From positions 1 to 64,000 of the forward strand of contig MIYU01000001.1 of NCBI GenBank assembly GCA_001875425.1: a DNA stretch of 64,000 nucleotides, written 5' to 3'. The translations under genes were made by a program, and so were the position numbers. The notes beneath the pieces were generated by a model that made no database searches, was not told the origin of the DNA, and saw nothing but the letters and a program-made list of their open reading frames with translations. The DNA comes from Marine Group III euryarchaeote CG-Bathy1. GTDB taxonomy: Archaea; Thermoplasmatota; Poseidoniia; MGIII; CG-Epi1. This document shows positions 36,578 to 41,266 of this stretch, in pieces; positions within the stretch are counted from its first letter, which is position 1; each line of letters opens with the position of its first letter.

Positions 36578-36654
36578 GCCACCGTAGCTTAGCCCGGTAT
36601 AGCGGCTGATTCGTAATCAGCAGATCGGGGGTTCAAATCCCCCCGGTGGCTCCA
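36578..36654 (+). tRNA. tRNA-Thr (anticodon CGT), CCA encoded
   Basis: Acceptor GCCACCG/CGGTGGC, discriminator T73, CCA at 36652-36654. The anticodon stem GCTGA/TCAGC has loop TTCGTAA, anticodon CGT, reading ACG codons. D-arm TAGCTTAGCCCGGTATAGC matches the tRNA-Ser gene in this window, as archaeal D-arms often do. No intron. Confidence 0.95.
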
Positions 36655-36714: not shown

Positions 36715-37605
36715 TTGTTTATAAATAATTATTTCAAAGCGATAAAAGGTTCAACTAAAAGATACCTTCAAATAGATTTAAATTATAAATTTCATATTAT
36801 CACAGATATCGTTGATTTATTGCTAGTAATTGTCGCGTTTACAGTTTTAGGAGGCTATGTAGATAATAATACAGATTTAGATATATCTGGTAACATATCT
36901 GCATCAACCTACGATCTTCAAGGTTTTTTACTCATAGGTGTTCTTTTTTGGGCACTCTATCAAAGATCTTATGAAGATACAGTGGCGGTTTTACCAGACG
37001 AAGCTTCAAGAGGCACTATAGGATTTTTAATCACTAACAATGTTAGTTTGTCAACACTCTTAATATCAAGAAATATCGCATCCACAATCAAATCAATCTT
37101 AATGGTCGTATTCATAGTCATCCCTGTTCTGTTTATCATAGATACTTTTTTTCGTAACTCAGAATCTACTCTATTTTCCGGTTTAAATCTTCACACCCTT
37201 CCAATAATATTTACGGTGTTTATTTTAATGTGGATATTTATGCTAACCATTTCTGTCGCAGTTTCTTCTCTTAATATAATTTCTAAAAAAGTTACGCCTT
37301 TTGCAAATTTAATAGTAAATGCTCTAAAAGTTTTAAGTGGTTATTATTTTCCTATAGCTGCTCTAAATGATTATTTAGGCGTTAATAATTCACTTTGGCT
37401 TCAGCACAATATTCCTATAGTCACCGGTTTAGTCTTTGTCAGGGATTTAATGTTGTCTGATGGTAATATTTCATATTCTATATTTTGGGATGAATATATC
37501 AAATCAATGATTTTCGGAATTTCAATTTCTATAATCTTCTCTCTGTTTCTTTATAAATATTTGGAATATAAATCTCAAAGATGGGGTAGTTTGGAGTTCT
37601 ATTAA
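36715..37605 (+). CDS. ABC-2 type transporter permease
   Basis: A 296-residue membrane protein with about six helices, beginning with an amphipathic cytoplasmic stretch (NNYFKAIKGSTKRYLQ) typical of ABC-2 permeases of the NodJ/DrrB kind. The start is TTG with GAAGGTG 6 bases before it. The stop overlaps the ATPase ATG (TAATG), so the two are one unit. Cargo is unknown; ABC-2 systems export polysaccharides, lipids, drugs or proteins. An extracytoplasmic loop follows the first helix (residues 45-80). Confidence 0.82.
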   Translation: MFINNYFKAIKGSTKRYLQIDLNYKFHIITDIVDLLLVIVAFTVLGGYVDNNTDLDISGNISASTYDLQGFLLIGVLFWALYQRSYEDTVAVLPDEASRGTIGFLITNNVSLSTLLISRNIASTIKSILMVVFIVIPVLFIIDTFFRNSESTLFSGLNLHTLPIIFTVFILMWIFMLTISVAVSSLNIISKKVTPFANLIVNALKVLSGYYFPIAALNDYLGVNNSLWLQHNIPIVTGLVFVRDLMLSDGNISYSIFWDEYIKSMIFGISISIIFSLFLYKYLEYKSQRWGSLEFY

Positions 37606-38546
37606 TGCGCGCTTTAGAGGTGGTCGATTTAGTCAAAGAATTTCCAACAGGATACAACCTCCCTCCCAATAGGGTGATAGAGGATATCTCATTTGAAATG
37701 GATATGGGCGATAGGATGGCAATAATAGGTCCAAATGGGTGTGGTAAAACTACCTTACTCAAAACACTGGCCACTATTTATCTTCCAGATTCAGGTTCCA
37801 TTAAGCTTTTCAGCCAAGATATGTTAAAACACCGTTCTCGCGCTCGTAAAACCTTCTCCTTCGTATCTCCTTCTCTAAATTTTCAATCTAAACTAACACT
37901 TTCACAAACTATATCTTATTTTGCCACAGTACTCCAAAAACCACCAGAAATAGTAATACCATTTTTGAAACGTACTAATCTTTACAAAATGTGGAATTCT
38001 CGTATAGAATCATTTTCAGAGGGTCAAAAGGCCATATTACGTTTAGCACTCGGTTTCTTAAAACAACCAAAAATTCTTTTTTTAGATGAAGTGGTAGCCA
38101 ACTTAGATGTTTCTAGAAAAGAAAGTGTAATAAACATTATAGAGGAAATGGAAGCTTATCAAGATTTAACCTTGGTAATGGTTGATCATGATCCATATGT
38201 AGTAGATAGATTGTGTAGTAAAATTCTAGTTCTGAAAGGAAACGGCACAGTACATTCTGTAAGTTCCGTTTCCGATTTAATGAATAAATTGCATTACAAT
38301 TTTTCCGTAGATGTCACACTAAAATCCGACATACCTGATTCAAAAGCCCTTTCTATTAGTAAAGCAATGAGAAAAAATAATCTAAAAGTCCGATATTTCG
38401 CAGAAGATGAAAAAAATCTTAAATCTATAATAAACAAATTGATTTCTTTGGGCCCAATCATTCAAGAATTTACAACGTCTTCTGTATCTATGAGGGACGT
38501 TTATTATTTATTATTCGAAGGTGGTTTAGATGAAGGTGATGTTTAG
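37605..38546 (+). CDS. ABC transporter ATPase
   Basis: A 313-residue ATPase that powers the upstream permease. Walker A is GPNGCGKTTL, the signature is FSEGQ (degenerate from LSGGQ), Walker B is ILFLDEV and the switch histidine is in VDHDPY. About 80 residues after the core form an extra C-terminal domain. There is no gap before the following beta-propeller gene, so the complex may include all three proteins. Confidence 0.92.
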   Translation: MRALEVVDLVKEFPTGYNLPPNRVIEDISFEMDMGDRMAIIGPNGCGKTTLLKTLATIYLPDSGSIKLFSQDMLKHRSRARKTFSFVSPSLNFQSKLTLSQTISYFATVLQKPPEIVIPFLKRTNLYKMWNSRIESFSEGQKAILRLALGFLKQPKILFLDEVVANLDVSRKESVINIIEEMEAYQDLTLVMVDHDPYVVDRLCSKILVLKGNGTVHSVSSVSDLMNKLHYNFSVDVTLKSDIPDSKALSISKAMRKNNLKVRYFAEDEKNLKSIINKLISLGPIIQEFTTSSVSMRDVYYLLFEGGLDEGDV

Positions 38547-40973
38547 TTGCAATGGCGTCTAAAAATATTTGATGATAGATATAAGCCCACCCGCATTCAA
38601 GCAAAACAAAAAGTCAACGGAGAAATAATATCTTTAGATTGTGATAAAACCGGTCAAAAAGTAGTCGCATCGACTAGCACACATACCTATTTTTTTCTGG
38701 ATAGAAAATTAATAGAAACAATCGAAAAAGAAGGCGTTAAACAAGCTATTTTTTCCAGAGATGGTTCAAGAGTAGTATTAATCTGTTTCAACGGCATTTA
38801 TACTTATGATTCATGGGGCAATCAGCGTTGGTCATACAACACAGAAGAAGATATCCACTCTGCAGTCTTTTCTAAAAACGGTTCTTATTTAGCAATTTCA
38901 GAAGGTAAGAATTTATTATTATTAGATAAAGAAGGGTCCATTATTTGGAAGGAAAAATCAGACAACTTTGTCGGGGGTATTGTTTTTTCAAATTCTCAAA
39001 AAATCTTAGTAGGCATGGACAAGGGAGTATCTTGCTTTGATTTCAGCGGAGAAAAATTATGGGCAACTCATACTGGTAATTTAGTTCTAGGAATTGCAAC
39101 TAGTGAAACAAATACAATAGCTATATCTGGTAAAGAACTTATTTTTCTTAATAACAACGGCGAACTTATTTGGAAAACCAAAGTGGGCCCCTTCCGTTCT
39201 CTTTCTATAGCGCACGATGGTGGAATAATGGTCGCAACAGACACGTCTGTTCGTAGATTCACTCAAACAGGCAAAGAAGTGTGGAATGTAGGTGGAGAAG
39301 AATTTGTTGAAACCTGTAAATTCATGCATACTGGGGATTTTACTGCAATGGCATTTGGCGGTGAAATTTTTAATTCTCATAACCTTCAAGCTCTAGATGG
39401 CACAGGCAATGTAGTTTGGTCATACAACGCGGGTCAAAATATCAAAGATTTAGCTATACCTGAGAATGGAGGATTAGTTATAGCAGCACTCGAAAACAAA
39501 ATATGGTGGTTTCAAAATACCGGTTATTTAAAAATGAGAGTAAATTTAGATCTGACTAAATGTTCAAAATTAATCAAAAAAGTTTCTGCATACGAACCAG
39601 ATTTAAGACTCGTCATAGATAAGGCCAATTCTTCCAATTTAGATGAATTATACAAGGAGGCAGAAAACCTCTCAAAAGGTAATCACGACACTCTCAGAAA
39701 TTCATATGAAATACTCTCAGAAATACTTTCCAGATTAGAAACTCTTCACATACGTCATGTAGAATATTTAGACACTCTACCGATTTTTCTTTCTAAAATG
39801 GGTCTAGATTCAAACTTACCAGAAATCTTAATTCCAAACCTTTATCCACTTTATTCTCTATATTATGACGTAGAATCTAAAACCATCTTATCTTCATTAT
39901 TGGATGATATTAAATTCAATATCAAACATCTCAAAAATACGGAAAAAAATCTCTCAGATTCCAATACTACACTGTCAAATGAAAAGGTATCTTTTCTAAA
40001 TTCAGGTCTTAAAGCTTTGAGGAAAGAACAACGCTTCGTTCGTAGTTTGATGGATAAACAGTCATCCGAAAAAGAAAAAATTCAAATTAAAATCAAGGAA
40101 TTAATAAATGAGTGGTTACAAACGGGCAAAATCACTGTAGATACTTTCGCTTTTTCTGAAAAAATCCGCCTTGAATATTCGGCTCAAGATGATTTATTGA
40201 ACGCAATCAGAAATAGAATGGAAGGCCATCTTGCTTTTGTAGATCAGACTTCAGATTTAGATGATTTAATTTTATCTTCTATTCGTTTTGAAAGTAAACC
40301 TTCGAACGTTATTTTACACAGCACCATAAAGAATAATGCAAAGTTTACAATCGATAAAATCAAAATACTTATTAGAATTAATGGAGATTCTCTCGGTTTA
40401 TCTGAAAATCATTCGGATACCCTACAGGTAGGTCATTTAGATTCTTCTGAAACGTACAACCTTTCTTTTAATTTCATTCCAATCAATTCGAATACAACCG
40501 ATATCATTCTAATATCTCAATACGAGATTAACACAGGTCAAATCGTAACTTCTAGATTAGGTAAAATCTCTTCACTCGTAAAAGATTGTTTCGTAACTCC
40601 ATTGGAGGTGGATGGTAGTATCCATTCTGAAAAAAGAGCAGAATATAGAAAAAATCATTTCCAATTCACCCTCAAAGTAGAAGGCGTTTCTTATTCTCAA
40701 TTATTAGATTTTAATACAAGACATCTTCGTAGTTTCCATTTATCAGATTTACATTCAGATGAACAAAAATCGATATCCTATTATTCTGCTAAATCTAATT
40801 TATCAGATTCTGATTATTTCTTAATGTCTATAATACAAAAAACTCCACAAAATACATGCGAACTCGAATGTGTTTGTTATTCTAATGATACTGTAGGTAC
40901 TGAACTTATTATCAAAGAACTCATTGCTGCTTTTAGCGATTCAATTCTACACACTGGAGGGAAATTAGTTTAG
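38547..40973 (+). CDS. Cytoplasmic PQQ/WD-like beta-propeller protein with coiled-coil, linked to an ABC transporter
   Basis: An 808-residue protein with no signal peptide, starting with TTG directly at the ATPase stop. Residues about 15-330 hold repeats of roughly 40 residues, each ending in a G-x-x-x-W motif (WGNQRWSY, GSIIWKEK, GEKLWATH, GELIWKTK, GKEVWNVG, GNVVWSY), a propeller of the PQQ/quinoprotein type. A helical region with coiled-coil character (about 340-560) and a beta-rich C-terminal region follow. Function is unknown. It may regulate the transporter, or recruit cargo to it from inside. Confidence 0.75.
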   Translation: MQWRLKIFDDRYKPTRIQAKQKVNGEIISLDCDKTGQKVVASTSTHTYFFLDRKLIETIEKEGVKQAIFSRDGSRVVLICFNGIYTYDSWGNQRWSYNTEEDIHSAVFSKNGSYLAISEGKNLLLLDKEGSIIWKEKSDNFVGGIVFSNSQKILVGMDKGVSCFDFSGEKLWATHTGNLVLGIATSETNTIAISGKELIFLNNNGELIWKTKVGPFRSLSIAHDGGIMVATDTSVRRFTQTGKEVWNVGGEEFVETCKFMHTGDFTAMAFGGEIFNSHNLQALDGTGNVVWSYNAGQNIKDLAIPENGGLVIAALENKIWWFQNTGYLKMRVNLDLTKCSKLIKKVSAYEPDLRLVIDKANSSNLDELYKEAENLSKGNHDTLRNSYEILSEILSRLETLHIRHVEYLDTLPIFLSKMGLDSNLPEILIPNLYPLYSLYYDVESKTILSSLLDDIKFNIKHLKNTEKNLSDSNTTLSNEKVSFLNSGLKALRKEQRFVRSLMDKQSSEKEKIQIKIKELINEWLQTGKITVDTFAFSEKIRLEYSAQDDLLNAIRNRMEGHLAFVDQTSDLDDLILSSIRFESKPSNVILHSTIKNNAKFTIDKIKILIRINGDSLGLSENHSDTLQVGHLDSSETYNLSFNFIPINSNTTDIILISQYEINTGQIVTSRLGKISSLVKDCFVTPLEVDGSIHSEKRAEYRKNHFQFTLKVEGVSYSQLLDFNTRHLRSFHLSDLHSDEQKSISYYSAKSNLSDSDYFLMSIIQKTPQNTCELECVCYSNDTVGTELIIKELIAAFSDSILHTGGKLV

Positions 40974-41266
40974 TATTCTCTCCACTTATGTTTACATTCT
41001 AAGCATTGATATATTCTAGTTTCCGGTTCATCAGATGCACGTGTTTGTCTTATTATCCACGATGCTTTATTATGGCCACATTTCCCACATTCTATTACGG
41101 TGGTGGGTAATGTACCACTGATATCATCGACTACTTCTCTTTCTTTCTGACTTGCAGTAGTACTAGTAATAACTGCTCCACCTTTATCTTCCTTATATCC
41201 ACATTTTTTACATATCGATACCTCTCCTTCTGGATACAATATCGTTTTACACTTGGGACAGAACAT
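40970..41266 (-). CDS. tfs: Transcription factor S (TFS, TFIIS-like)
   Basis: A 98-residue factor that stimulates RNA cleavage by stalled RNA polymerase. The N-terminal zinc ribbon has CPKC and CKKC; the C-terminal ribbon has CGKC and CLEC, with the RASDEPETR hairpin whose Asp and Glu reach the polymerase active site. Its ATG overlaps the ferredoxin stop (TAATG), and its 3' end overlaps the propeller gene by 4 bases, so the two stops interlock. Confidence 0.95.
   Translation of the reverse strand: MFCPKCKTILYPEGEVSICKKCGYKEDKGGAVITSTTASQKEREVVDDISGTLPTTVIECGKCGHNKASWIIRQTRASDEPETRIYQCLECKHKWREY

Follow-up and report, generated by a model that had tools for sequence, protein, structure and literature searches.

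Why should an ATP-binding cassette (ABC) exporter be encoded in tight translational contact with a large cytoplasmic beta-propeller protein? This question is raised by a locus in Marine Group III (MGIII) euryarchaeote CG-Bathy1, in which genes for a permease, an ATPase and an 808-residue protein, here called P3, follow one another on the same strand. The locus lies in a stretch of 64,000 nucleotides (contig MIYU01000001.1, positions 1 to 64,000), hereafter the window, which represents g1, one of three sampled genera (g1, g2 and g3) in its family. P3 is classed here, on its predicted fold alone, as an adaptin-appendage-like protein, and the argument for its role turns on that fold and on the contrasting history of its propeller in genomes with and without the exporter genes.

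An ABC exporter and its third gene product

The locus comprises the following features, the parts of P3 being given by residue.

36715-37605, forward strand: ABC-2-like permease, 296 residues (hydrophobic segments; no Pfam match)
37605-38546, forward strand: ABC ATPase, 313 residues (PF00005, 91.6 bits; TAATG contact with the permease)
38547-40973, forward strand: P3, an 808-residue cytoplasmic propeller/helical/appendage protein (open reading frame, homologue alignment and AlphaFold model)
38592-39515, forward strand: P3 residues 16-323, PQQ/WD-like beta-propeller (PF13360; AlphaFold and full-length fold search)
38907-39386, forward strand: P3 residues 121-280, candidate exporter-docking region (windowed identities)
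39519-40235, forward strand: P3 residues 325-563, helical/coiled-coil middle, candidate dimerisation region (AlphaFold)
40266-40577, forward strand: P3 residues 574-677, predicted immunoglobulin (Ig)-like beta-sandwich, the GAE/appendage lobe (models and fold search)
40578-40970, forward strand: P3 residues 678-808, predicted alpha/beta platform lobe (models and fold search)

The permease and ATPase genes overlap by one base (TAATG), and P3, which starts with TTG, follows the TAG stop codon of the ATPase without a gap. The corresponding junctions in g3 are TGATG and TAATG. Because these stop-start contacts persist between g1 and g3 despite an identity of only ~57% for permease and ATPase, tight coupling is conserved between the two lineages; the permease orthologues in g3 show 48-59% identity, and P3 itself has diverged to ~30%. 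A preliminary description of the window had reported a permease, an ATPase and a third protein joined by such contacts, the last with a PQQ/WD-like propeller, a coiled coil and a beta-rich end and without a signal peptide. The open reading frames and their junctions confirm the arrangement, PF13360 and the AlphaFold model agree with the domains, and the intracellular location withstands a review of the start codon (see below).

Judged by sequence, permease and ATPase appear to form an unremarkable exporter of the ABC-2/DrrA-like kind. Walker A (GPNGCGKTT), signature (SEGQ) and Walker B (LFLDE) motifs are legible in the ATPase, for which the closest curated family, TIGR01188 (DrrA), scores 126.9 bits, short of its cut-off of 312. 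Since the ATPase is of this ordinary kind, the new transporter class proposed in the preliminary description is not upheld. The permease has hydrophobic segments, belongs to no Pfam family and is distantly homologous to permeases adjoining DrrA-like ATPases; among eight loci examined outside the family, those with a clear permease match are ATPase-permease pairs with no P3-like gene beside them. A defence system was considered and rejected: PADLOC has no entry that matches P3 or the permease, and only generic ABC/AAA entries that match the ATPase.

The full-length AlphaFold model of P3, built from 13 aligned sequences, has a mean predicted local distance difference test (pLDDT) score of 81, and the C-terminal part modelled alone has a score of 85. 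The propeller matches PF13360 at 45 bits (cut-off 27.6), and DSSP assigns 32 strands to residues 16-323 of the model, corresponding to about eight four-stranded blades. Elements of the modelled platform run in the order helix, strand, helix, four strands, helix, so that an N-terminal helix is present, and the chain ends after a single helix at residues 782-802; no Trp is invariant in the platform across the homologue alignment. Neither a hydrophobic N-terminus nor a signal peptide nor an N-terminal transmembrane segment was found in 16 P3 homologues, whose starts agree with the annotated start of P3, and a secreted or periplasmic propeller is thereby ruled out.

Predicted resemblance to coat appendages

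The models of P3 were compared with known structures using Foldseek. For the C-terminal model, searched against 350,542 PDB chains, the best 17 matches were all coat appendages, aligned over 233-255 columns that span both lobes. Adaptin and COPI appendages occupy the top 16 places (E 3e-10 to 3.9e-6), with COPI coat chains among them; the E-values include 3e-10 for gamma-COP, 1.4e-8 for beta2-adaptin and 7e-8 for alpha-adaptin (both of AP2), and 1.5e-5 for BBS7. When the full-length model was used, BBS7 and BBS9 appeared at ranks 3, 5, 7 and 11 (865-879 columns, E ~1e-14), in a list where many ordinary propellers also match.

Traces of the same resemblance occur in the sequences. PF16381, the gamma-COP appendage platform, weakly matches one g3 homologue (E 0.0023, positions 23-112 of 115), PF02883 (Alpha_adaptinC2) weakly matches other homologues (E 0.012), and AP5B1_barrel gives a weak match to the sandwich lobe of P3 homologues. 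In one genome (G011), P3 is the best PF02883 match genome-wide (9.6e-4). When the C-terminal profile of P3 was searched against PDB sequences, nothing significant was returned, and for this reason the appendage assignment relies on fold comparison.

The choice between an adaptin-like and a BBS-like protein is informed by the platform. BBS platforms lack an N-terminal helix, whereas the alpha-adaptin platform has one (PMC7018513). The helix predicted in P3 therefore suggests that its C-terminus is closer to adaptin/COPI appendages than to BBS platforms, although the overall layout is BBS-like. No BBS family is among the Pfam matches listed and no BBS chain appears in the PDB sequence searches. 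Hence, P3 is not classed as a BBS protein, having no sequence homology to one, no C-terminal coiled coil and probably eight blades.

Exporter presence and the rate of the propeller

A profile scan of genome contigs, using an alignment of g2 sequences only, located P3 relatives in the Marine Group III euryarchaeote genomes CG-Epi1, AG-343 and AH-321. Full-length homologues are present in 16 further genomes of the family, including one in which the gene is split over two contigs (G019); the two g2 and two g3 genomes without a full-length copy are incomplete assemblies. The G012 contig stops within the ATPase gene, and the match to elongation factor 2 (EF-2) is cut short in G007 and G018. Beyond the family, no relative of the helical and C-terminal part was found among 390 genomes of the phylum, where only chance-level partial matches of 46-93 positions occurred, and a scan of viral contigs yielded no P3 relatives. 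Nor was a second P3-like paralogue, a possible heterodimer partner, found in 21 genomes.

Genus g3 and the window share the arrangement rpsL, tRNA-Thr, permease, ATPase, P3, TFS. In 12 g2 genomes P3 stands alone between tRNA-Thr and TFS, without ABC genes; the permease was found in none of 14 g2 genomes, and the best ATPase matches there are generic ABC proteins of roughly 20-30% identity. The three-gene block anticipated by the preliminary description is thus conserved in g1 and g3 and missing in g2, and the lone P3 contradicts its notion of an obligatory partner. A tree of EF-2, S7 and S12 has the topology (g1,(g3,g2)) with support of 98/94, and the approximately unbiased (AU) test rejects a g1+g3 clade (p = 0.02), although the outgroup branches are long and the root is only moderately secure. 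Given this topology, the ABC pair would most simply have been present in the ancestor of the family and later lost in g2.

The domains of P3 differ in how they have changed alongside the exporter. Propeller identity is 37% between g1 and g3 and 23% between g1 and g2 (difference 0.14, 95% interval 0.09-0.19), an excess seen neither in the helices nor at the C-terminus. When the tree of the three clades was fixed, the ratio of the g2 to the g3 branch was 2.73 for the propeller (bootstrap 2.01-3.73); it was 1.09 (0.74-1.66) for the helices and 0.78 (0.55-1.31) for the C-terminal region. The contrast peaks at residues 121-280, where windowed identities are 0.35-0.42 for g1-g3 and 0.13-0.19 for g1-g2. 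Comparisons within genera run in the same direction: the ratio of propeller to C-terminal identity is 1.05-1.12 in g3, the propeller being higher in all four pairs, and 0.69-0.89 in g2, where it is lower in all eight, these pairs sharing lineages and so not being independent tests. C-terminal identity within g2 is ~0.59, and the helical part is also well conserved. Such a pattern, while no proof of contact, would be expected if the propeller faced the exporter and was freed when the exporter was lost. An unrelated propeller swapped into g2 is disfavoured, as the motifs KPxxxxAKQ at the N-terminus and WFQNxGxL at the exit are shared.

The surroundings of P3 are constant in rpsL, tRNA-Thr, TFS and ferredoxin, the flanking open reading frames having been annotated in part. 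Two neighbours frame the operon:

36578-36654, forward strand: tRNA-Thr (CGT), identified by ARAGORN, 60 bp upstream of the permease
40970-41266, reverse strand: convergent TFS/TFIIS-like transcription factor, the constant right neighbour of P3 in all relatives

The tRNA-Thr gene, which the preliminary description had missed, is the constant left neighbour of the operon, or of the lone P3, in every MGIII relative whose assembly covers this region. Its anticodon is CGT in the window and TGT at the same site in every g2 and g3 relative. TFS and ferredoxin abut in the window (41266), whereas relatives carry a gene of ~200-225 residues between them (for example L031:3039-3653), two tested copies of which have no Pfam match. 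Between EF-2 and EF-1alpha, a g2 genome has three tandem AIM24-family genes (PF01987; L036:1186-3211); open reading frames of the same size occupy this site in most g2 genomes, but in neither the window nor g3. Elsewhere, a small GTPase of the Ras family (PF00071, E 5e-36 and 3e-41) is found in MGIII genomes, at L107:6655-7179 in the window's own genome (contig C16) and at L108:6364-6903 and L109:6879-7418. In g2 and g3 the GTPase gene is followed by genes for a V4R-like protein of 149 residues and a tetratricopeptide repeat (TPR) protein of ~300 residues, both of which are missing beside it in the window's genome.

Proposed role of P3 and comparison with known systems

The reading that we prefer, tentatively and as not quite an even prospect, is that P3 is a cytoplasmic adaptin-like adaptor or scaffold, with its propeller docked on the exporter where one is present and its appendage recruiting other partners or cargo. 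Adaptin and COPI ears act as hubs for further partners. In g1 and g3, where the exporter is kept, P3 would be co-translated with the ABC-2 permease and ATPase, its propeller, chiefly residues ~121-280, would dock on the exporter, and its appendage may be a hub that brings other cytoplasmic partners or cargo to it. The helical region may self-associate, no paralogue being available for a heterodimer. In g2 the exporter genes would have gone and P3 been kept with its appendage intact; its survival there suggests that the appendage-dependent role is the core one and independent of the exporter. For the BBS platforms, no ligand is known (PMC7018513). The preliminary description had read the locus as an exporter operon, a view that retains the conserved block and the constraint on the propeller only where the exporter is present, but which overlooked the C-terminal adaptin-type appendage; this appendage moves the interpretation from a transporter subunit to an adaptor or scaffold possibly docking on a transporter. 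A bolder proposal is that a non-Asgard archaeon possesses a full coat-subunit-like protein through which a cytoplasmic adaptor is coupled to an ABC exporter, as a prokaryotic analogue of cargo adaptors of the BBS and adaptin type, or a remote relative of their ancestor, that acts on a transporter and not on vesicles; we consider this doubtful.

Several points count against P3 as an exporter-docked adaptor. All three genes are contiguous in only four genomes. Template-modelling (TM) scores to known appendages are low (0.32-0.41), probably owing to a differing orientation of lobes or domains, and the appendage sequence matches all fall below their cut-offs (18.5 against 31.2 bits for PF16381 and 19.4 against 27.6 for PF02883), such that the assignment rests mainly on predicted structure. 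The rate shift of the g2 propeller could come from any new propeller role, and P3 might be a housekeeping scaffold of an ordinary kind whose co-transcription with the ABC genes is accidental.

The last point leads to the chief rival, in which P3 is a free-standing cytoplasmic scaffold without exporter contact, its gene merely located downstream of tRNA-Thr, and the ABC pair, inserted upstream or later removed, has simply shared its transcript. Such a scaffold would be consistent with a P3 that persists unaccompanied at this site in 12 g2 genomes, with the absence of its helical and C-terminal part from every other sampled member of the phylum, and with distant permease homologues elsewhere in the phylum that have no P3-like neighbour. 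However, both stop-start junctions have been kept between strongly diverged lineages and the constraint in exporter-bearing genera falls on the propeller alone, and we regard this explanation as possible but unlikely. It is improbable that P3 instead belongs to an archaeal membrane-remodelling or protein-sorting system, with the exporter as its cargo or client, akin to the endosomal sorting complex required for transport (ESCRT) systems of Meth_adaptin and Halo_adaptin. Archaeal Ig plus TBP-fold appendage proteins and propeller-Ig proteins have indeed been reported from Methanobacteriales and Halobacteriales, where they occur in ESCRT loci (PMC11188069), and MGIII genomes encode the Ras-family GTPase, beside V4R-like and TPR proteins in g2 and g3; but ESCRT-III exceeds the Pfam cut-off in none of 21 MGIII genomes, by a model insensitive to archaeal forms, and no recognisable ESCRT gene occurs at the P3 locus among neighbours annotated in part. 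A dedicated regulatory or sensor subunit of the exporter, in line with the preliminary description, whose propeller senses substrate or nucleotide state and whose g2 form is a re-purposed relic, would fit an operon conserved in g1 and g3 and a propeller constraint that follows exporter presence, but is likewise improbable; the conservation of the helical part and appendage in g2 (C-terminal ~0.59) marks no relic and implies an exporter-independent role.

Eukaryotic coats and the BBSome are characterised by adaptin appendages with two lobes and by the succession of propeller, helix, GAE and platform. In P3, both predicted lobes are joined to a propeller and a coiled coil in one chain, in planktonic Thermoplasmatota, which are distant from Asgard archaea, and the protein may offer a route to the role of such modules before vesicle coats. 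The apparent loss of the exporter provides a natural experiment in which drift affected the propeller alone, and this contrast in domain rates gives a testable prediction of the exporter-docking domain.

Among known transporters, DrrAB-type ABC-2 exporters likewise combine one ATPase, here nearest TIGR01188, with one small permease; the present pair differs in being co-translated with a cytoplasmic propeller/appendage protein and in a permease unrecognised by Pfam. P3 shares with BamB/PQQ-type propellers a match to PF13360 above cut-off, but has no signal peptide, and its propeller is the first 40% of a multidomain cytoplasmic chain. The appendages, or ears, of adaptins and COPI gamma have the two lobes, sandwich and platform, predicted for P3; they sit on an adaptin or COP solenoid trunk, whereas the P3 lobes come after a propeller and helices. 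The order of N-terminal propeller, helix or coiled coil, Ig-like GAE sandwich and alpha/beta platform is that of BBS2, BBS7 and BBS9 of the BBSome (PMC7018513). These have seven WD40 blades, where the P3 model has about eight PQQ-like blades, and a C-terminal coiled coil after the platform, which P3 lacks; P3 also has a much longer helical middle (~240 residues), is single-copy without a paralogue for heterodimers, and has no BBS sequence match.

The closest archaeal comparison is with appendage domains already described. Makarova et al. (2024) reported adaptin-appendage domains, composed of Ig and TBP folds, from Asgard archaea and from the ESCRT loci of Methanobacteriales, as well as Halobacteriales proteins with a propeller and multiple Ig domains, and traced appendage domains to the last archaeal common ancestor (PMC11188069). 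Eme et al. (2023) described adaptor-protein (AP) domains in Asgard archaea that are not fused together (PMC10307638). Halo_adaptin, with its N-terminal WD40/PQQ propeller and Ig-like domains, and Meth_adaptin, with Ig and TBP-fold lobes (PMC11188069), each resemble part of P3, in which propeller, coiled coil and both lobes are united in one chain. They sit with Vps4 and ESCRT-III, whereas P3 is encoded either next to an ABC exporter or by itself. A limited literature search found no report of a propeller, coiled coil and both lobes together, or of a link to an ABC exporter, and the architecture and ABC context of P3 appear new among archaeal appendage proteins.

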